From Wenyingzhuangia aestuarii (GTDB lineage: Bacteria > Bacteroidota > Bacteroidia > Flavobacteriales > Flavobacteriaceae): DNA of 64,000 nucleotides. This document shows, in pieces, positions 50,803 through 59,498 of this stretch (its first letter is position 1; each line of letters starts with the position of its first letter). A model generated the notes under the pieces. It worked only from the letters and a program-made list of their open reading frames with translations, ran no database searches and had not been told where the DNA came from. Both the position numbers and the translations under genes were made by a program. Where the stretch lies: positions 186,001-250,000 of the forward strand of contig NZ_JAATJG010000002.1 of assembly GCF_011927765.1 (NCBI RefSeq), given 5' to 3'.

Positions 50803-51378
50803 ATGACTAATGCAGAAAAGGATATTACGATTTTACTTAAAAATCTCATCAAAGGAGATGAAAAAGCCTACATGTCTTTAATAGATATTTATTATCAAAA
50901 ACTTTTTGGATATGCCTATAGTCTTACCAACGATTCTGCCTTGGCAGAAGATATTGTTCAGAATGTTTTTATGCGCGTTTGGGAAACTAGAAAGAAATTA
51001 AACATAAAAGAATCTGTAAAAAGCTTTTTGTACAAATCTGTCTACAATGATTTTGTAAATAGTTATAGAAAAAAACAATCTTCTATAGTTTTAGATCAAA
51101 TTTTTTATGATACGTTAAACTCTTTTACAGAACCCGAAGAAACTAATTTATTGAATGAGAAATTAGCATTGATTAAAAGTGAAATTGAGCTTTTACCTAC
51201 TAAATGCAAACAGGTTTTTTTGTTAAGCAAAGAAGAAGGTTTAACCAATATAGAAATTTCAGAATATTTATCAATATCAAAAAAAGCAGTAGAAGCACAC
51301 ATTACAAATGCATTTACTATTCTTAGAGAAAGAACGGACATAAAAATAAAACAAGCAGAAAATAACATAGATAACTAA
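50803..51378 (+). CDS. ECF RNA polymerase sigma factor (FecI-like)
   Basis: A 191-residue group IV sigma factor. Region 2 (about 25-95: YYQKLFGYAYSLTNDSALAEDIVQNVFMRVWE) and region 4 (about 125-185: LPTKCKQVFLLSKEEGLTNIEISEYLSISKKAVEAHI) are present; region 3 is absent, as in ECF factors. In Bacteroidota such factors pair with a FecR anti-sigma and an STN-type SusC. Both are in the window (58344-59498 and 54676-58233), but the sigma gene is on the opposite strand at the far end of that cluster. It ends convergent with the phosphatase gene. Confidence 0.92.
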   Translation: MTNAEKDITILLKNLIKGDEKAYMSLIDIYYQKLFGYAYSLTNDSALAEDIVQNVFMRVWETRKKLNIKESVKSFLYKSVYNDFVNSYRKKQSSIVLDQIFYDTLNSFTEPEETNLLNEKLALIKSEIELLPTKCKQVFLLSKEEGLTNIEISEYLSISKKAVEAHITNAFTILRERTDIKIKQAENNIDN

Positions 51379-51454: not shown

Positions 51455-52867
51455 TTATTTTTTAGAAACAAAGTCTTTTCGGTGTCTTACTCCAATTTCT
51501 GGTTTATTGTTGGTTATGGTCTTTTTTCCATGTTTATCTTTTACCAAACTAAAACTATCATAAATAGTACCTTTTGGTGTGTAAGAATTATAGTTTAACG
51601 TATTGTTTTCTATGGTAATTATTTGAAATAGTTGTGTGTATTCCCCACGTTTTACCATCCATTCCTGATTCTGAGACTCGTACATTTTAGGTCCACTTAC
51701 AGATACTGCATATATTGCTCCTGCATTTTCTACAACTGTTTTTCCCAAACCTTGATTAGAAGCATAACCTCTAGCATAAGTATGATCGTGACCTTGTAAA
51801 ATTAAATCTACTCCATGTTTTTGTATCAAAGGTTGTATCATTTCACGCAACTCTTTGTTATCTCGCCCTTTTTTGGTTGAATAAATAGGGTAGTGCATGG
51901 TAATAGTTGTCCATTTTTTGTGATTGTGGGTTAAAACAGAATCTAACCATTTTGTTTGAGCATTTCTTGAGTTTTGACTGTTGATAAAACTTTGTGCATC
52001 AATAGAAATTAACTTCATGTTTTGATAATTGATGGCGTAACACGTTTCTTTTAACTCTTCCAAAGGACCATTTTCGGGTAATGTAAATTGAGGTTTCCAT
52101 AAGGCAGATAAATTTTTACGATTGCTACCCTTGTCATATTCATGATTTCCAGGAGTCATTACACTAGGTACAGTGGCATGAATAAAACTTCCTGCATAAA
52201 ACCACTCTCCCCATTCTTTGTCCGATTCGCTATGATTGATTAAATCTCCTGCGTGTAGCATAAAATCTACCGTAGGCATCATTTTATAAGACTTACGAAT
52301 TACCCTAGACCACATAGATTTTACATCGTTTTGAGCATCTCCAAAATAAATAAAACTAAAAGCTTTGTTTGTGTCTTTGGCAGGTGTGTTTATTTGAAAC
52401 CATTCGCTCCAAGTATCACTATTTTTAGCACCACTCCCAACACGATACACATAAGTGGTTTCTGGTTCTAAATTAGTTGCAATTACCGAATGATAAGCTG
52501 CGTGTACCAAAGGTTCTTGATCTCTAGTATTTTCAGTTTTTATAAATTGAGTTGTTGCTCTAATGCGTTTTACATGGTTGTTTAGTAAAAAATCTGGACC
52601 ATGTGTTTCTTTTGCTATTTCTATATAAGCCGTATCTATTTCTTGATTTGTTCTCCAATTTACAGCAAAACTATGTGCTGAATCTTCTGTTAAATTAACA
52701 ATAATTCTATCTGGTGTGGTTGATGGAAAAATTAATTTATGAGCAGGTACATCTGCTTGGTAGTGACTGTGATTGTGTGCATGTTCTTTGTGCTGCTGTT
52801 CTTGAGAAGTTTGATTACAGGCAGAGAACACAATAATGCAGCTGCAAAAAAGTATTAATTTCTTCAT
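51455..52867 (-). CDS. Purple-acid-phosphatase-like metallophosphoesterase, lipoprotein
   Basis: The ATG at 52867 (MKKLILFCSCIIVFSACNQ) is chosen for its lipoprotein signal (Cys17); the open frame to 52942 would cross the susD stop and a hairpin. 470 residues. An N-terminal Fn3-like domain (about 50-155) precedes the dinuclear-metal phosphoesterase with all ligand blocks: IYFGDAQND, MLHAGDLINH, TPGNHEYD, ITMHYPIYST, LQGHDHTYARGYA. It should release phosphate from organic phosphates at the cell surface. It follows susD by 60 bp with a hairpin between, suggesting the SusCD pair imports a phosphorylated compound or its product. Confidence 0.88.
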   Translation of the reverse strand: MKKLILFCSCIIVFSACNQTSQEQQHKEHAHNHSHYQADVPAHKLIFPSTTPDRIIVNLTEDSAHSFAVNWRTNQEIDTAYIEIAKETHGPDFLLNNHVKRIRATTQFIKTENTRDQEPLVHAAYHSVIATNLEPETTYVYRVGSGAKNSDTWSEWFQINTPAKDTNKAFSFIYFGDAQNDVKSMWSRVIRKSYKMMPTVDFMLHAGDLINHSESDKEWGEWFYAGSFIHATVPSVMTPGNHEYDKGSNRKNLSALWKPQFTLPENGPLEELKETCYAINYQNMKLISIDAQSFINSQNSRNAQTKWLDSVLTHNHKKWTTITMHYPIYSTKKGRDNKELREMIQPLIQKHGVDLILQGHDHTYARGYASNQGLGKTVVENAGAIYAVSVSGPKMYESQNQEWMVKRGEYTQLFQIITIENNTLNYNSYTPKGTIYDSFSLVKDKHGKKTITNNKPEIGVRHRKDFVSKK

Positions 52868-52887
52868 TTTTTTTGGATAAAAGTTAA

Positions 52888-52916
52888 AAAAACAGGAGTA
52901 ATGTACTCCTGTTTTT
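52888..52916 (-). terminator. Hairpin between susD and the phosphatase gene
   Basis: AAAAACAGGAGTA (52888-52900) and TACTCCTGTTTTT (52904-52916) enclose ATG, 10 bases past the susD stop codon and 20 bases before the phosphatase ATG. A T-run follows on the minus strand. It may attenuate transcription rather than end it, since no space remains for a promoter beyond it. Confidence 0.7.
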
Positions 52917-52926
52917 AGTTTGTAAT

Positions 52927-54663
52927 TTATTGTAATAGCCACATTTTAGACCATTGATTATTGGTGGCAGGTTGTAATTTTTCAATTGCTTTAAGCATAT
53001 TATCTTCGTTATAAGGATCCGTGTACCAGAATCTTACAGGAGTATTGTTTCCGTTACTTCCTGATATAATATTGCTATTTAAATCAGGGAAACCCGTTCT
53101 TCTCCAATCAAACCAAGATTCACTAGTAAGCCACAAAGCAATCCATTTTTGATGTATAATAGGTTCTAGCTTATTACTTGCATTGTCAAAAATATTTTTA
53201 ACATTGGCTATGTATTCATTTTCATCAAAAGAAATTAAAGTATTGTTTGCTTTATCGTATATGGAATTGTCATCACCATTGGTAATTTCATACTGTTCAA
53301 AAGACATTTTAATTCCATTTTTGTAATAATCATAAGCATTGTTTGTAATCCATCCACGAGCACTTGCTTCTGCTAAAATAAATTGAACTTCAGCAACATT
53401 CATTAAAGTAGCTTTAACCAAAGGATGGTTGTTTTCTGCATACATATCTGTTAAATAAGAAGCATGAGGATTTGCAGCTGCATTTAGGTAAATAGTGGTA
53501 TCAAGGTTGGAAATATCATTTTTATAATCACTAATAGTACCTCCTAAATTAAAGTCGTTTGGTGCACTTAAAGCAACAGGAAGCCCTACAAATAAATCGG
53601 TATTGATATCATTTTCTTTATCTGCATCTGTGTTAATAGCATTGATGTCTATATTTACATAGCGTATTATTTTACCAGCTTCTTCTACTACTTGATTGGT
53701 AGCTCCTTGTGCTAGTTGTACATCTACAGGTTTTATCCATTTGGTTAAACGAGGATCTTTTAATTCTGTAAGATCTTTTACAATAGTTGCCGACGGTTTT
53801 CTTCTGTAAAATTCAGAACGATTACTGTAATTTAAAGCCCCACCAGACCAACTGTTATCGCTATCTGTTCCAATATACGCAATCATGGCATTGTCATTAT
53901 TGTTTTGTAAAATAGGAAATTCACTAGCATTGTTTACAATTGTAGCTATTTCTGCAGATACATCAATATTAGAATTGTTCTTTTCAGACAACCTCATGTA
54001 AAATCTAAGACGTAATGAGTTGGCTAGTTTTCTCCATTTTTGACCATCACCATTATATACAACATCAGCATCTATTGCTTCTGTAATAACTCCAGTGTTT
54101 TTTAACAAAGTGTTGGCTGTTTTTAGATCGTTTAGAATACCTATAAAAACATCTTTTTGAGAATCGTACACTGGTTTAAAAAATTCATTTCCTCCTTTTT
54201 CACCTTGTAAAGCTTTGCTAAAAGGAATGTCTCCAAAAGCAGAGGTAAGAAAACCAAATTCATAAGATTTCATAATCAAAGCCACAGCTTGATAATAGTT
54301 TTTTGTTTCGTCCTTTTTTTCTTTTTCAGCACGTTCAAAAATGTATTGACTGTCTTTTAAAGGTTCGTAATAAATACTAAAATCACTAGCTCCCCATTGA
54401 TAATTGTTTTCTTCGTAACTGGTAAAATCTCTTTGTAAGTATTGAGTAGCAGCAGATAATTCTCCTCCTTCAAAGGCAATTCTACTCCTTATTTGTGCCG
54501 ATTTTGTTAGCACACCTGTTAGTACAAATTTAATATCAACCTCTGTGTCACTAAGTGTATTAGGACTCGTGTTTATTTCGTCTAAAGATTCACTACAAGC
54601 AGAAAACAAAAGTGTTGCTAAAGCTACATATAGTGTGATTATTTTATTTTTTATTTGTGTCAT
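52927..54663 (-). CDS. SusD/RagB-like nutrient-binding lipoprotein
   Basis: A 578-residue surface lipoprotein (LLFSAC, Cys23) of the SusD-like superfamily. SLDEINTSPNTLSDTEVDIKFVLTG, the TPR-type helices (NYYQAVALIMKSYEFGFLTSAFGDIPFSKAL) and the C-terminal EKWIAL-type segment HQKWIALWLTSESWFDWRRTGFPDL are characteristic. It forms the lid over the SusC channel and binds substrate. It lies 13 bp after susC. The phosphatase downstream suggests a phosphorylated ligand; no glycoside hydrolase is in the cluster. Confidence 0.92.
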   Translation of the reverse strand: MTQIKNKIITLYVALATLLFSACSESLDEINTSPNTLSDTEVDIKFVLTGVLTKSAQIRSRIAFEGGELSAATQYLQRDFTSYEENNYQWGASDFSIYYEPLKDSQYIFERAEKEKKDETKNYYQAVALIMKSYEFGFLTSAFGDIPFSKALQGEKGGNEFFKPVYDSQKDVFIGILNDLKTANTLLKNTGVITEAIDADVVYNGDGQKWRKLANSLRLRFYMRLSEKNNSNIDVSAEIATIVNNASEFPILQNNNDNAMIAYIGTDSDNSWSGGALNYSNRSEFYRRKPSATIVKDLTELKDPRLTKWIKPVDVQLAQGATNQVVEEAGKIIRYVNIDINAINTDADKENDINTDLFVGLPVALSAPNDFNLGGTISDYKNDISNLDTTIYLNAAANPHASYLTDMYAENNHPLVKATLMNVAEVQFILAEASARGWITNNAYDYYKNGIKMSFEQYEITNGDDNSIYDKANNTLISFDENEYIANVKNIFDNASNKLEPIIHQKWIALWLTSESWFDWRRTGFPDLNSNIISGSNGNNTPVRFWYTDPYNEDNMLKAIEKLQPATNNQWSKMWLLQ

Positions 54664-54675
54664 CTTGTTTTTTAT

Positions 54676-57600
54676 TTAAAAAGTAACATTAAGTCTGAAT
54701 CCCATTGGTAATGTCCAAGGAGCAAGATTCCATTTTTCGAAACCTTGATTACCACCATCGTAAGCCAATTCAGGATCTATTCCAATTCCTGCCTTTGTCC
54801 ATAACATGATGTTTTTAGCGTATACAGAGAAAGATATATTTTGAGCTGAGATATATTCGGTAATATTTCTCGGGAATTTATAAGTAAGAGTAATGTCTCT
54901 CATTTTTACAAAAGAAGCATCATACATAAAAGCATATCCGGTTCTCCAAAAACTCCCACTAGATTCTACCACTCTGTATGCATCAAAGAATTTAGTACCA
55001 GCACCTCCAAAGTTTTCGGTATATGTACCATCTCCGTTGTCTATAACTCCAGGAAAAAAGGCACCATTGTAATTTCCGTTGTACTCAAAACCACCTAGTT
55101 CTTGATTTCTACCCCCAACCCATACATCGTTATCTCTATAAGCAGGGTTTGATTTAATGGCTTCGGCAAGTGCTTCTCTATCACCATTATAAGAATTAGC
55201 GTTTAATACACCAGAAAATGTACTAGAACTGATTCCATTTTTCCAATTTTCTATTTTTCCAGATCTAGCCATTCTTTTCATAGATTCAGAAAAGAAATTA
55301 CCTCCTTGTCTCCAGTCAAAACTAGCAGAGATTGTGAAATTTTTATAACTAACAGAGGTGTTAAGTCCCATAGCAAAATCGTTATTAAAGTTTCCTACTT
55401 TAATTTGATTTTCTTTGCTTCTATCTACCTCCCATCTACCGTTAGCATCTAAAATATTCCAACCTTTGTATTCTCCTTCTTCTACTTTTTTAATGTAAGG
55501 AGAGTACAGATCTCCAATAGTACCACCTACTCTTGTAAATGCACCCATATCCGTACCTCCTCCAAAAGAAACTCTATCAATACCATCTACCAATTCTACC
55601 AGTTTACTTTGTTGTTTGGTAAAGTTAAGATTCATGTTCCATTCAAAATCTTTGAATTTTACAGGAATTACATTCATTCCTAATTCTATACCATAATTTT
55701 CGACATTACCTGCATTAATTGTAGTACTTGTATAACCTGTAAGAGGAGATACAGATACATTTAAAATTTGGTTTTTGTTTTGAGTTTTGTAGTAAGTAGC
55801 ATCAAAGCCTAAACGACCGTGAAAAAGTTTTACGTCTGTACCAATTTCATAAGAAGTAGCAATTTCAGGTTTTAGGTTTGTATTAGGCATACTACTAGGT
55901 AATGAATAAGTAAAATCATCTCCCCAATAACCTTGAGATAGGGTAGGGCTAATCATGTAAGGAGAAGTGTCTTTACCTACTTGTGCCCAACTAGATCTTA
56001 ATTTAAAAAGAGATACCCAATTTGGCATGTTTACAAATTCTGAAACTAATACACTAGTAGAAACAGAAGGGTAAAAATAAGAACGGTTTTCTTTAGGCAG
56101 AGTACTAGACCAATCGTTACGAGCAGTAATATCTACAAAAGCATAGTCTTTAAAACTAAGAGATACCATACCATATACACTGTAAATCGCTTTTTTATAG
56201 CTAGCACTAGCATAGTTTAAACCACCTCTAGATACGTTTGACAATGTATACAAACCAGGAAGCACCAAATTGTCTCCGCCACTGTTTATAGAGTAACCGT
56301 TTTGATGCATAATGTTGGCACCTACAGAAGGAGCTATGTTAAAATCTCCAACATCTTTTTTGTATGAAAAAAGGGCATCAATATTAGATTCTCTAGAAAT
56401 AGTATTACTAACATTATAAGAACCAAAAGGTTTGCTACTTCCAAATCCATCGTAAGACCAAGGTTTTATAATTTCTGTTTTGTTTGTTGTGCTACTATGA
56501 GAAACTCTAGCCATTGCATTAAAATCAGGAGTAATTTCCCAGTCTAATTTTACGTTTCCAAAACCTCTGGTTTTATCAAAAGTGTTTTTTCTTTCGTTAG
56601 CAGAAAACCAAGGATTGTTGTATCCTTCTGTAATTTTATTTTGTTGCGAGTTTTTAACGGTCCAGTAATCTCCATTTAAATCGTTAATATTAATGTGAGG
56701 AGCAATGTTGTAAATGTCAAAATACTGATCGTTATTACCAATAGACTTTACAGGAAAGTTGTTTGATTTTGGATTTGATAAATTGATGTTAGTAGACACT
56801 TTAACTTTGTCTGTTATATGATAACTAGTGGCAAGGTTAACCCCTATTTTGTTTAGTTCTGTACCTGGGGAAAAACCCTCTCCTTTTAAATGAGAAAGAG
56901 ATAGACGAATTTCTCCTTTTTCAGAAGCACCAGAAACACTAACATCATTAATAGTGGTTATTCCTGTTTTAAAATAATCTTCTAAGCTATTGTCATAAAA
57001 TTCTAAAGGAGTTTCTTGCCCATTGCTATTCCATTGCACAGCAGGAGTTCCTTCTTCGGCTCCATACCAATGTTGCCAAGTAGCTTCGTCAAATTGTCCT
57101 TTTTGTCCATTTGTAAATCTATTTTGCAAGTCAATATATTTGTAAGGAGTGTTAAAAGTTGTGGTGGTGTTAAAAGAAACTCCAATTCCTTTTTTAACGT
57201 GTTTTCCAGATTTTGTAGTAACAAGAATAACCCCGTTACCAGCTCTAGAACCATATAATGCTGCTGCACTAGCTCCTTTTAATACAGATATGTTTTCAAT
57301 ATCCATAGCGCTAATATCTCCCAAAACATTAGTGTCTCCAATTGGAGAACCATCAATAACTACTAAAGGTTGATCGTTTCCAGTTAAAGAAGTTTTTCCT
57401 CTAATGTATACATATGTTTCGCTATTTAAATCGTTTCCTCCTCTACGGATGTCTAAACCAGAAATTTTAGCAGACATACCTCCCAATACGTTTTCTTGAG
57501 GAACAAGGTTTAATTTTTCTGTATTTAATTCACCTACCGAATATCCTAGAGCCTTTTTTTCTCTCTTCATACCCAAAGCAGTAATTACTACTTCGTTCAT

Positions 57601-58233
57601 GTTTTCTACAGAGCGTTCTAAAATAATATCTAAATCTGTTTGGTTGTTAATTGTTATTTCTTGAGGAAGCATTCCAACATAAGAAATCACCAAAATAGTT
57701 TGTTTGTTAGGCACGGTAATTTTAAAAATACCATCAAAATTAGTAAGCACTCCTTTGTTTGTTCCTTTTATTAACACATTTGCTCCAGGTAATAACATTC
57801 CCTGAGAATCTTGCACCACTCCAGTAATTTCTATGGCTTGTTGTTGTACCGTTTTGGAGTTAAGCGGTTTTATAGGAGCTGTTTTAAGAACAATGTGGGT
57901 GTCAACAATTTCGTAAATTTTGTTTGTGTTTTTAAACAATTGATTTAGTACGGTTTCTACTTTTTCATTGATTACGTTGATGCTAACAATTTTATCTATA
58001 TCTACATCTTTGGTGTTGTATAGAAATTGGTATTCTGTTTTAGATTCTATTTCATCTAAAACTTTTTCAATAGTTACCTTATTTAAATTTAAGGTGATTT
58101 TAATGTTTTGATTGATGTTGTTAGCGTGTAGTGTAAATAGGCTAACAACTAAAAAAAAGGTGGTTAATTTAATTTTTAAATTAAATTTTAGAGCGCACAA
58201 AGCCATACTCTTGATTTGTGTGAAAATTTTCAT
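54676..58233 (-). CDS. SusC/RagA TonB-linked outer-membrane transporter with STN signalling domain
   Basis: An 1185-residue transporter. The signal region (to about 38) is followed by an STN domain (about 42-115: IKITLNLNKVTIEKVLDEIESKTEYQFLYNTKDVDI), a CarboxypepD_reg-like domain (about 132-210: ITGVVQDSQGMLLPGANVLIKGTNKG), a plug with SusC signature (LNLVPQENVLGGMSAKISGLDI; VYIRGKTSLTGNDQPLVVIDGSPIGD; LKGASAAALYGSRAGNGVILVTTK) and a barrel. The STN domain implies signalling to the FecR protein encoded just upstream. On the opposite strand a consensus promoter overlaps its start codon and would make an antisense RNA to its leader. Confidence 0.94.
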   Translation of the reverse strand: MKIFTQIKSMALCALKFNLKIKLTTFFLVVSLFTLHANNINQNIKITLNLNKVTIEKVLDEIESKTEYQFLYNTKDVDIDKIVSINVINEKVETVLNQLFKNTNKIYEIVDTHIVLKTAPIKPLNSKTVQQQAIEITGVVQDSQGMLLPGANVLIKGTNKGVLTNFDGIFKITVPNKQTILVISYVGMLPQEITINNQTDLDIILERSVENMNEVVITALGMKREKKALGYSVGELNTEKLNLVPQENVLGGMSAKISGLDIRRGGNDLNSETYVYIRGKTSLTGNDQPLVVIDGSPIGDTNVLGDISAMDIENISVLKGASAAALYGSRAGNGVILVTTKSGKHVKKGIGVSFNTTTTFNTPYKYIDLQNRFTNGQKGQFDEATWQHWYGAEEGTPAVQWNSNGQETPLEFYDNSLEDYFKTGITTINDVSVSGASEKGEIRLSLSHLKGEGFSPGTELNKIGVNLATSYHITDKVKVSTNINLSNPKSNNFPVKSIGNNDQYFDIYNIAPHININDLNGDYWTVKNSQQNKITEGYNNPWFSANERKNTFDKTRGFGNVKLDWEITPDFNAMARVSHSSTTNKTEIIKPWSYDGFGSSKPFGSYNVSNTISRESNIDALFSYKKDVGDFNIAPSVGANIMHQNGYSINSGGDNLVLPGLYTLSNVSRGGLNYASASYKKAIYSVYGMVSLSFKDYAFVDITARNDWSSTLPKENRSYFYPSVSTSVLVSEFVNMPNWVSLFKLRSSWAQVGKDTSPYMISPTLSQGYWGDDFTYSLPSSMPNTNLKPEIATSYEIGTDVKLFHGRLGFDATYYKTQNKNQILNVSVSPLTGYTSTTINAGNVENYGIELGMNVIPVKFKDFEWNMNLNFTKQQSKLVELVDGIDRVSFGGGTDMGAFTRVGGTIGDLYSPYIKKVEEGEYKGWNILDANGRWEVDRSKENQIKVGNFNNDFAMGLNTSVSYKNFTISASFDWRQGGNFFSESMKRMARSGKIENWKNGISSSTFSGVLNANSYNGDREALAEAIKSNPAYRDNDVWVGGRNQELGGFEYNGNYNGAFFPGVIDNGDGTYTENFGGAGTKFFDAYRVVESSGSFWRTGYAFMYDASFVKMRDITLTYKFPRNITEYISAQNISFSVYAKNIMLWTKAGIGIDPELAYDGGNQGFEKWNLAPWTLPMGFRLNVTF

Positions 58234-58240
58234 ATTTTTG
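58211..58240 (+). promoter_or_regulatory. Antisense promoter overlapping the susC start codon
   Basis: On the plus strand TTG (58211-58213), a 19-base spacer and TATTTTTG (58233-58240) match the Bacteroidota promoter consensus exactly. It points away from susC, into the susC leader, towards a terminator hairpin at 58283-58304. Confidence 0.6.
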
Positions 58241-58246
58241 ATTGAG

Positions 58247-58315
58247 ATTTTTAGTGGTAATTTTTATATCACTTTCCTTAATGGGAGATGTTAGCGCATC
58301 TCCCGTTTTTTTTTG
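58247..58315 (+). ncRNA. Putative antisense RNA to the susC leader (DonS-like)
   Basis: A segment of about 70 bases lies between the plus-strand promoter (58211-58240) and a plus-strand intrinsic terminator: GGGAGATG (58283-58290), loop TTAGCG, CATCTCCC (58297-58304), then G and about ten T. No open reading frame is in it. It would be fully complementary to the susC mRNA leader, from about 14 to 80 bases before the start codon. In Bacteroides, antisense RNAs of similar size and position repress susC-type operons under ECF sigma/anti-sigma control. Both ends are predicted. Confidence 0.5.
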
Positions 58316-58316
58316 T
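58283..58316 (+). terminator. Plus-strand terminator between susC and fecR
   Basis: The 8-bp GC-rich stem with 6-base loop is followed by a T-run only on the plus strand. On the minus strand, the direction of fecR and susC, no T-run follows, so it is not the fecR terminator, though it can form a hairpin in the susC leader. Confidence 0.72.
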
Positions 58317-58343: not shown

Positions 58344-59498
58344 TTAGTGGATAATAATTTGATTTTTGTTTGTAGTATATTCAAAGTTGTAACTTTTTTG
58401 AAAGGTGTTTAATACCTTGTAGATATCTTCTTTTTTACTGTTAAAAGCAGCATTAAAGTATTCATGATTTAGTTGTTTGTTGTGGTTGATTATTTGAATA
58501 TTGTAGCTGCGTTCTAATCTTTTTATAATATTTTTAAAAGGGATGTTTCTAAATATAAGTTGTCCTGTTCTCCAACCCGTATAAATTCTAGTATCTACTT
58601 TTTCTTTAGAAATAGAACCTTCTTTTTCGTTGTAAAGACCTTTAAAACCTGGTGTTAGTAGAGTAGCAGTGGTACTGTTGTAATAGTTATTGTTATATAG
58701 TCCCACCAGTCCTTCTACCAATACTGTTGCTATATTAGGCTCCTCAGGATATGCCGATACATTAAATTGAGTTCCTAAAACACGGACTTTTAAATCATTT
58801 GCTTTTACAATAAAAGGCCTTAGAGAATCTTTTGCTACCTTAAAAAAAGCTTCTCCTTGTATACTAACTTCTCTTTTTTGATTAGAGGCAAACTGGGTAG
58901 GATATTCTATGGTTGTACCAGCGTTAATTGTAATAGTAGTTCCGTCAGATAAGACTAATTCAAACTGTTTACCGTAAGGCACACTTAGTTGATTATAGAC
59001 TGGAGTTTTAGAAGTAGACTTTGTATGGTAAACAATTCTGTTTTCTTCTTGAATTCCTATTTTGTTTCCGTGGATATCTACTATTTCTTTTGAGCTTTTT
59101 TCGTTGATGATTTCAACTTGTCCATTTGCTAATTGCAGTGTAATTTGATTTGAACTTGCACTAAACGTGTCTTTTACAATGTTTCTGTTGTAAAGAAAAT
59201 AACTAGAACCTACAAAAAGAATTAATATAGCTGCGTATTTTAAAGAGAGGTAAACAATTGACCTTTGTTTATTGTTTTTTGCTTTTTGAATTCTAGCTAG
59301 TTCTTTAGCTTTAAAATTTTTAGGAGTGGTTTTAGTAAGTAAAGTATTTGTAAGGTAATAGACCTTTAGGTAGTCGTTAAAAAGTTCTTTATTATGGTTG
59401 TCTATTTTTATCCAACGTTCTAACAAAGCCAATTCTTGTTTAGTAGCATTGCCTGTTAGGTAGTGTAGAATACTGTTTTCTATTTCAGATGGAATCAT
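58344..59498 (-). CDS. FecR-type anti-sigma factor
   Basis: A 384-residue inner-membrane protein. A cytoplasmic N-terminus (about 1-80, sigma binding: NSILHYLTGNATKQELALLERWI) precedes one membrane helix (about 82-103), a FecR domain (about 165-270: VPYGKQFELVLSDGTTITINAGTTIEYP; REVSIQGEAFFKVAKD) and a C-terminal DUF4974 domain (FRNIPFKNIIKRLERSYNIQI). It should hold an ECF sigma inactive until the STN domain of SusC signals. It lies 110 bp upstream of susC. Its presumed sigma partner is not adjacent but at 50803-51378 on the other strand. Confidence 0.92.
   Translation of the reverse strand: MIPSEIENSILHYLTGNATKQELALLERWIKIDNHNKELFNDYLKVYYLTNTLLTKTTPKNFKAKELARIQKAKNNKQRSIVYLSLKYAAILILFVGSSYFLYNRNIVKDTFSASSNQITLQLANGQVEIINEKSSKEIVDIHGNKIGIQEENRIVYHTKSTSKTPVYNQLSVPYGKQFELVLSDGTTITINAGTTIEYPTQFASNQKREVSIQGEAFFKVAKDSLRPFIVKANDLKVRVLGTQFNVSAYPEEPNIATVLVEGLVGLYNNNYYNSTTATLLTPGFKGLYNEKEGSISKEKVDTRIYTGWRTGQLIFRNIPFKNIIKRLERSYNIQIINHNKQLNHEYFNAAFNSKKEDIYKVLNTFQKSYNFEYTTNKNQIIIH

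Follow-up and report, generated by a model that had tools for sequence, protein, structure and literature searches.

In Wenyingzhuangia aestuarii, a promoter locked to the start codon of a susC gene probably drives an antisense RNA of about 70 nt, which would fold into two hairpins, pair with the susC leader, lower susC expression and set the threshold at which the import operon switches on. This reading comes from a 64,000-nucleotide stretch of the genome (the window) and from related genomes, where several independent tests, all of them comparative, point to a shared structured RNA at FecR–SusC junctions. The comparison supports the promoter box, the terminator, the folding strand, selection on RNA structure and the concentration of the element between fecR and susC. 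Judged from these features, a genuine antisense RNA is very likely; we infer that it is transcribed under some condition, and its repression of susC would be carried over from DonS, an antisense RNA of Bacteroides fragilis. Within the reach of the searches, three things are new: the two-hairpin structure common to the loci, the locking of the promoter to the start codon and the wide occurrence of the element.

The susC operon and its predicted antisense RNA

Gene calling and Pfam searches recovered the parts that the earlier note had read in this locus, namely fecR, an STN-domain susC, susD and an adjoining phosphatase:

58344–59498, minus strand: fecR, FecR anti-sigma factor
54676–58233, minus strand: susC, STN-domain TonB-dependent receptor, target gene of the putative antisense RNA
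52927–54663, minus strand: susD, SusD-like lipoprotein
51455–52942, minus strand: purple-acid-phosphatase-type metallophosphoesterase
50803–51378, plus strand: ECF sigma factor gene

The fecR–susC gap measures 110 bases. The ECF sigma gene does not adjoin fecR; it lies beyond the phosphatase and faces the operon, an arrangement also found in three of four same-genus relatives (G001, G002 and G003), while the stretch from the fourth (G005) has no sigma gene. Its product is likely the partner of FecR. At four other loci of the window genome (L031–L034), the gene immediately upstream of fecR is of sigma-70 type. Judging from its translation, the phosphatase probably starts at the ATG near 52867, and between this ATG and the susD stop sits a 13-pair hairpin (52888–52916), flanked on either side by A and T runs and listed on both strands, which might reduce expression of the phosphatase compared with that of susCD. 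Uptake of a phosphate compound is plausible as the cargo of the operon, because of the purple-acid-phosphatase-type protein and because of a precedent in Flavobacterium, the PUS, in which SusCD, phosphatases and FecR/ECF regulators come together under phosphate limitation (PMC8115612; papers are cited here for selected parts of their text).

The antisense element consists of the following features:

58211–58213, plus strand: candidate −33 TTG of the antisense promoter, within the susC coding sequence (from sequence; weak outside the genus)
58233–58240, plus strand: −7 box TATTTTTG (TAnnTTTG) of the antisense promoter (from sequence and junction comparison)
58246–58315, plus strand: predicted cis-antisense RNA, about 70 nt between predicted ends (from sequence, folding and family comparison)
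58253–58273, plus strand: SL1, 5′ hairpin AGTGGTA–loop–TATCACT (from folding and best-stem scoring)
58280–58307, plus strand: SL2, terminator hairpin (from terminator scan, folding and covariation)
58291–58296, plus strand: SL2 hexaloop TTAGCG, the innermost U·G not being counted as a pair (from sequence)
58306–58314, plus strand: terminator T-run of nine T, the first two pairing within the stem (from sequence and terminator scan)

The promoter that the earlier note had placed over the susC start codon, a TTG followed by 19 bases and TATTTTTG, is confirmed at 58211–58240 of the plus strand; the first T of the box is the last base of the start-codon CAT (58231–58233), an overlap of one base. 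The hairpin lies downstream of the promoter as described, at about 40 bases from the box rather than 45, and the eight GC-rich base pairs given for it hold as its core, whereas the whole stem in the terminator scan has 12 pairs, including A–U and G–U ends. That scan lists 58280–58307 on the plus strand only, in agreement with the view that the T-run belongs to this strand alone and that the hairpin does not terminate fecR. The RNA of about 70 nt complementary to the susC 5′ leader is likewise borne out as a prediction: 58246–58315 gives a two-hairpin fold of −22.3 kcal/mol (z −6.0), which none of 200 shuffles equalled, and with the T-run excluded the antisense strand reaches −22.0 kcal/mol vs. 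−16.1 kcal/mol for the sense strand. Across 48 aligned loci, the predicted length without the T-run is 51–77 nt. A search of the 4227 Rfam models at E values up to 1 gave no match at the window element, and seven related loci gave none at gathering scores.

The cis-antisense RNA driven by the plus-strand promoter, which is of primary-sigma type, would have its 5′ end about 13 nt before the susC AUG and its 3′ end at the intrinsic terminator, about 80 nt before the AUG, and would be complementary to the susC leader along its whole length. Pairing with the leader would probably begin at the hairpin loops, and susC expression may then fall because ribosomes are barred from a leader lacking a Shine–Dalgarno sequence, because the duplex is exposed to RNases, or for both reasons. 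Signalling through ECF sigma and FecR would raise susC mRNA and titrate the antisense pool, which would give the import operon its threshold.

Relation to DonS and to flavobacterial systems

The earlier note had likened the element to DonS as a cis-antisense RNA over a susC leader, and the comparison supports this likeness, the same architecture apparently recurring at some junctions of a probable Bacteroides genus. The Don locus of B. fragilis has FecR/ECF sigma regulators, and like the window it joins them to a SusCD operon. DonS typifies cis-antisense RNAs of 78–128 nt that are divergent to susC homologues and lower their expression, and ten antisense RNAs of this orientation are described in B. 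thetaiotaomicron, five of them shown by Northern blot (PMC7366714). In the PULs of that species the number later rose to 32, with two more shown (PMC10994844); expression of these RNAs is documented, in some cases in anticorrelation with susC (PMC7366714, PMC10994844). DonS is a repressor whose mechanism has been termed unknown (PMC11697453).

As in these B. fragilis and B. thetaiotaomicron cases, the predicted RNA of the window is short and lies opposite and divergent to susC. The DonS kind has its own promoter and 3′ terminator, and the window offers a conserved predicted TAnnTTTG box and a terminator. We note two differences. First, the DonS kind is known from Bacteroides and mucosal glycans, whereas the window belongs to another family, carries a phosphatase as its cargo and is known from sequence alone; cargo was not taken as defining the RNA. 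Second, at about 70 nt the predicted window RNA falls slightly short of the 78–128 nt of the DonS kind, both of its ends being predictions. Position, regulators, promoter and terminator thus support placing the putative window RNA with the DonS kind.

Closer in taxonomy, the Flavobacterium PUS resembles the window in joining SusCD and a phosphatase or phosphodiesterase to FecR/ECF regulators, and antisense RNA goes unmentioned in those parts of its description that were picked for other terms (PMC8115612). Flavobacterium psychrophilum has cis-antisense transcripts, as predicted for the window, and TAnnTTTG as its primary-sigma consensus; one paper lists flavobacterial antisense RNAs, offers them as a starting point for Bacteroides-like studies and, in its section on antisense RNAs, names no susC-leader family (PMC9723704). 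In the open-access literature, so far as its selected parts go, no conserved antisense RNA at fecR–susC junctions outside Bacteroides was found.

Recurrence of the element at fecR–susC junctions

A FecR protein search of 60 genomes gave matches in at least 34, and 80 stretches round FecR matches were taken from 17 genomes; they are mostly the better-scoring among the matches listed, so the shares that follow are no census. Gene calling in these stretches and the window produced 78 fecR–susC pairs, 7 pairs of another gene with susC and 518 other same-strand neighbours, with each frame given its first start codon by a mechanical rule, for junctions and controls alike, so that some starts are wrong on either side. 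Where the gap was 60–300 bp, a terminator on the antisense strand only was present in 49/72 fecR–susC gaps, 0/5 other susC gaps and 3/210 other same-strand gaps, while the corresponding numbers for sense terminators were 2/72, 2/5 and 51/210. TAnnTTTG stood exactly at the start codon in 37/77 fecR–susC pairs, 0/5 other susC pairs and 3/342 other same-strand pairs. The looser form CATAnnTTT[GA] occupied the susC start in 61 of the 78 pairs (46 of these 61 boxes ending in G), and, read on the antisense strand, a hairpin with a T-run often followed about 45–55 bases past CAT-AnnTTT. Twenty of the 78 junctions fall outside both hairpin classes, several of them visibly with a hairpin and several without. 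The comparison supports a plus-strand promoter of primary-sigma type that is locked to the susC start codon. The −33 TTG was rejected as a conserved element beyond the genus, being present at spacing 19 in 6/61 box loci and in 4/5 same-genus orthologues (window counted); promoters of F. johnsoniae likewise show no general conservation of a −33 TTG (PMC7366714).

A search for a sense promoter of susC upstream of the hairpin was also made and rejected, as it returned a loose motif only, often near the fecR stop. The k-mer ATGAAAT, found in 14/72 fecR–susC gaps vs. 3/210 control gaps, is a lead and not a promoter. By eye, a sense-strand motif close to TGCCTATGAAAT recurs between fecR and the hairpin (L323, L325, L329, L088, L089 and others) and is a possible susC promoter.

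Synteny of the operon extends to four genomes of the same genus (G001, G002, G003 and G005). The earlier note would have given up its proposal had relatives that keep the operon lost promoter and hairpin; no such loss was seen, all four genomes retaining both, with stem changes that preserve pairing. Two further genomes of the genus have no close FecR relative among the matches listed (G004, best E 6e-26; G006, none).

A covariance model, R1, was built from alignment A1, which comprises 48 of the 53 class-I candidates; the other five (L043, L046, L081, L098 and L102) were excluded for a wrongly chosen, truncated or atypical hairpin. Within the window genome, R1 matches five loci (the window and L031–L034), compared with nine FecR matches among the matches listed and 41 SusC matches. 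The element does not seem tied to cargo, since a PhoD-like phosphatase gene lies near L031 and GH97 and LamB-like porin genes lie near L032, with other genes between; these genes are neighbours by proximity.

Run on 60 relatives with up to 64 candidates scored per genome, R1 gave 59 matches in 15 genomes, mostly training loci; 29 of 30 loci from this run have both FecR and SusC, and the remaining one, L120 (G036:C25), has its match at a SusC with no FecR within 1.5 kb. In 395 genomes of the phylum, R1 matched 17, with nine candidates scored per genome, so that absence means little. Outside the training genomes there were 20 matches in 15 genomes, 19 of them at FecR–SusC junctions on the opposite strand. 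One match, L156 (G115:C1), lies near neither FecR nor SusC and is probably false. The complementary set of 40 SusC genes without FecR, left after 10 of 50 loci had been removed as having one, showed an antisense-only T-tail in 2/40, TAnnTTTG in 0/40, and 23 G·U vs. 10 A·C in best stems; R1 had no match under E 0.09 in this set, and among the 41 loci on which it was run the single strong match, L263, does possess FecR.

Sixty more FecR loci, again mostly the better-scoring among the matches listed and 40 of them outside the family, added 53 pairs, in which an antisense-only T-tail occurred 19 times and the reverse once, and the excess of G·U (47) over A·C (26) was smaller. Many very-short-gap pairs in this wider set are without box and hairpin, and the box with a similar hairpin appears in other families (e.g., L202, L205, L209, L210 and L234).

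To mark Bacteroides among the genomes, we used RF01694, which we take to be the Rfam family Bacteroides-1. It matched 2/198 genomes, both of one genus and one above the cut-off, and 1/14 controls, namely Bacteroides ihuae, so the genus marked is probably Bacteroides, as judged from one RNA family. Ten of the 13 genomes searched in it have FecR, and the 30 loci studied (mostly the better-scoring among the matches listed) comprise 19 gaps long enough to measure, 10 too short for the element and one without a pair. The 19 measurable gaps hold an antisense-only T-tail in 12 cases and the reverse in none, 25 G·U and 2 A·C, and the box in 8. R1 matches 5 of the 30 loci of this probable Bacteroides genus at E ≤ 0.01.

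Hairpin structure, alternative readings and meaning

The recurrence of promoter box and terminator at fixed places would also fit a reading in which the act of transcription is what matters, with the antisense polymerase interfering over the susC leader, or with the terminator shielding fecR from antisense read-through, and with the RNA as a by-product. We regard this reading as unlikely. Interference across 70 bp is usually weak, SL1 seems to be selected for structure on the antisense strand though it is no part of termination, and the SL2 hexaloop is conserved.

SL1, often of the form GTGGTTA...TAATCAC, lies outside the terminator and played no role in the choice of loci. Its best stem scores 7.07 on average vs. 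4.82 (sd 0.24) in dinucleotide shuffles, and its ratio of G·U to A·C is 53:3 vs. an expected share of 0.73 (sd 0.07), with 0/200 shuffles as skewed. The RNAalifold consensus of the A1 loci did not report SL1, probably because its aligned positions vary. It is mainly because of SL1 that the RNA itself is thought to matter beyond its transcription.

The loop of SL2 was surveyed in the 35 of 53 class-I candidates that have a six-base loop and a strict T-tail, with 19 generic six-base-loop terminators (of 127) from the same loci for comparison. The former carry TTNNNG in 19 cases and its reverse complement CNNNAA in 7, hence one or the other orientation in 26/35, and 34 are G–C-closed; the latter carry TTNNNG in none and CNNNAA in two (2/19), and 3 are G–C-closed. 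The inverted form, CNNNAA in place of TTNNNG, is seen in L056, L058, L069, L080, L093 and L101, and L054 has GNNNAA. This pattern suggests that the centre of the hairpin flips during evolution, and what counts may be the match between the loop of the antisense RNA and the loop of the leader; both orientations are expected if an inverted repeat sometimes flips its centre and it is the loop–loop match that counts. A second type of hairpin, with a longer loop, is found at 10/78 loci by a loose pattern, and the strict pattern ACTTTGn(1-4)GGT in 4/72 fecR–susC gaps vs. 0/210 controls. These loops resemble ACTTTGG..GGT (L050, L057, L108, L109 and L110) or its reverse complement (L035, L051 and L059), and the hairpins mostly have T after them on the antisense strand.

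The conserved hexaloop could also be a target site for a protein or for a partner in trans, and antisense RNA/susC pairs in B. thetaiotaomicron are correlated as well as anticorrelated (PMC10994844). Both points favour an RNA that protects or activates susC mRNA, or that is mainly trans-acting or protein-binding, over one that represses in cis. However, DonS represses (PMC7366714, PMC11697453), a protein reading a single RNA strand would hardly be expected to use a loop in both orientations, and FecR and SusC are both found at all but two (L120 and L156) of the 55 R1-match loci inspected, training loci and some duplicates included. We regard such a role as improbable.

An inverted repeat can fold on either strand, and the hairpin might serve the sense mRNA by attenuation in its leader or as a processing or stability element. 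The apparent plus-strand promoter would then be a chance resemblance or a translation-start context, the box lying where F. johnsoniae translation starts favour adenine, notably A at −3 (PMC6847099). The strand tests and the T-run on the antisense side make this very improbable. With the T-run excluded, the antisense strand folds more stably in 46/48 A1 loci (mean −21.7 vs. −14.0 kcal/mol). Each of the 78 fecR–susC gaps was represented by its best stem, chosen with G·U and A·C treated alike (A·C being G·U on the sense strand) and with the T-run ignored; these stems contain 93 antisense-strand G·U vs. 16 A·C, and T-tails are antisense-only in 47 gaps and the reverse in none. In 210 control gaps, the stems contain 62 G·U vs. 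112 A·C, and the T-tails are antisense-only in 8 and the reverse in 25. The G·U share of 0.85 compares with 0.68 in dinucleotide shuffles of the 78 gaps (sd 0.035, maximum 0.76; 0/40 as high), so that composition accounts for part of the excess and not all of it; SusC genes without FecR lean towards G·U as well (23 vs. 10). SL1, as described above, is skewed to the same side.

The leader bases point the same way. A comparison of 65 ATG-start fecR–susC pairs with 272 controls singles out C at −7 (0.65 vs. 0.13), A at −6 to −4 (0.80–0.85 vs. 0.47–0.54) and T at −1 (0.86 vs. 0.42), whereas A at −3 is unremarkable (0.60 vs. 0.52) and −2 is likewise relaxed. The standout bases spell TAnnTTTG on the opposite strand, and the relaxed −3 and −2 are its two n positions. 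A Kozak-like translation context as the source of the conserved box was rejected, since −3, where its A would sit, is relaxed.

In A1, SL2 has 11 pairs, 10 of them with changes on both sides, and a covariation of 0.561 vs. 0.260 in shuffled alignments (0/500 as high; 0.11–0.19 when slid); the loci were chosen for such a hairpin, which inflates the paired share and the compensatory changes less so. The wobble count within SL2, 55 G·U to 0 A·C, is biased because class I was chosen allowing G·U and not A·C, the unbiased count being the one from the best stems. That the repeat is a DNA operator for a susC regulator is hardly credible: its place between fecR and susC and a loop that occurs in either orientation would suit an operator, but the one-sided G·U excess and the T-run would be left without a reason, and the stem sequence varies while pairing persists.

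An antisense RNA that pairs with the susC leader thus remains the preferred reading, and it may extend further. The element could be an ancient, standard antisense RNA of the FecR–SusC module across Bacteroidia, with a two-hairpin structure, a start-codon-locked promoter and a strand-flipping hexaloop in which sense–antisense loop pairing, and not loop identity, is selected. We hold this class-wide reading tentatively, at slightly less than even confidence, because a single RNA family stands behind the genus name and distant loci show less of a wobble excess.

SusCD systems, present by the dozen in each genome (at least 41 SusC matches in each of six genomes scanned), are major importers of nutrients in Bacteroidota, and most need keeping off. 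If a conserved antisense RNA is indeed wired into the FecR–SusC junction, post-transcriptional control would be an inbuilt feature of one class of SusCD systems, and far outside the gut as well. With structure, box and loop defined, point mutations offer a direct test of how DonS-like RNAs act, and R1 can be used for annotating such antisense RNAs. Should the class-wide reading hold, the element would be a cargo-independent threshold device for nutrient import throughout Bacteroidia.
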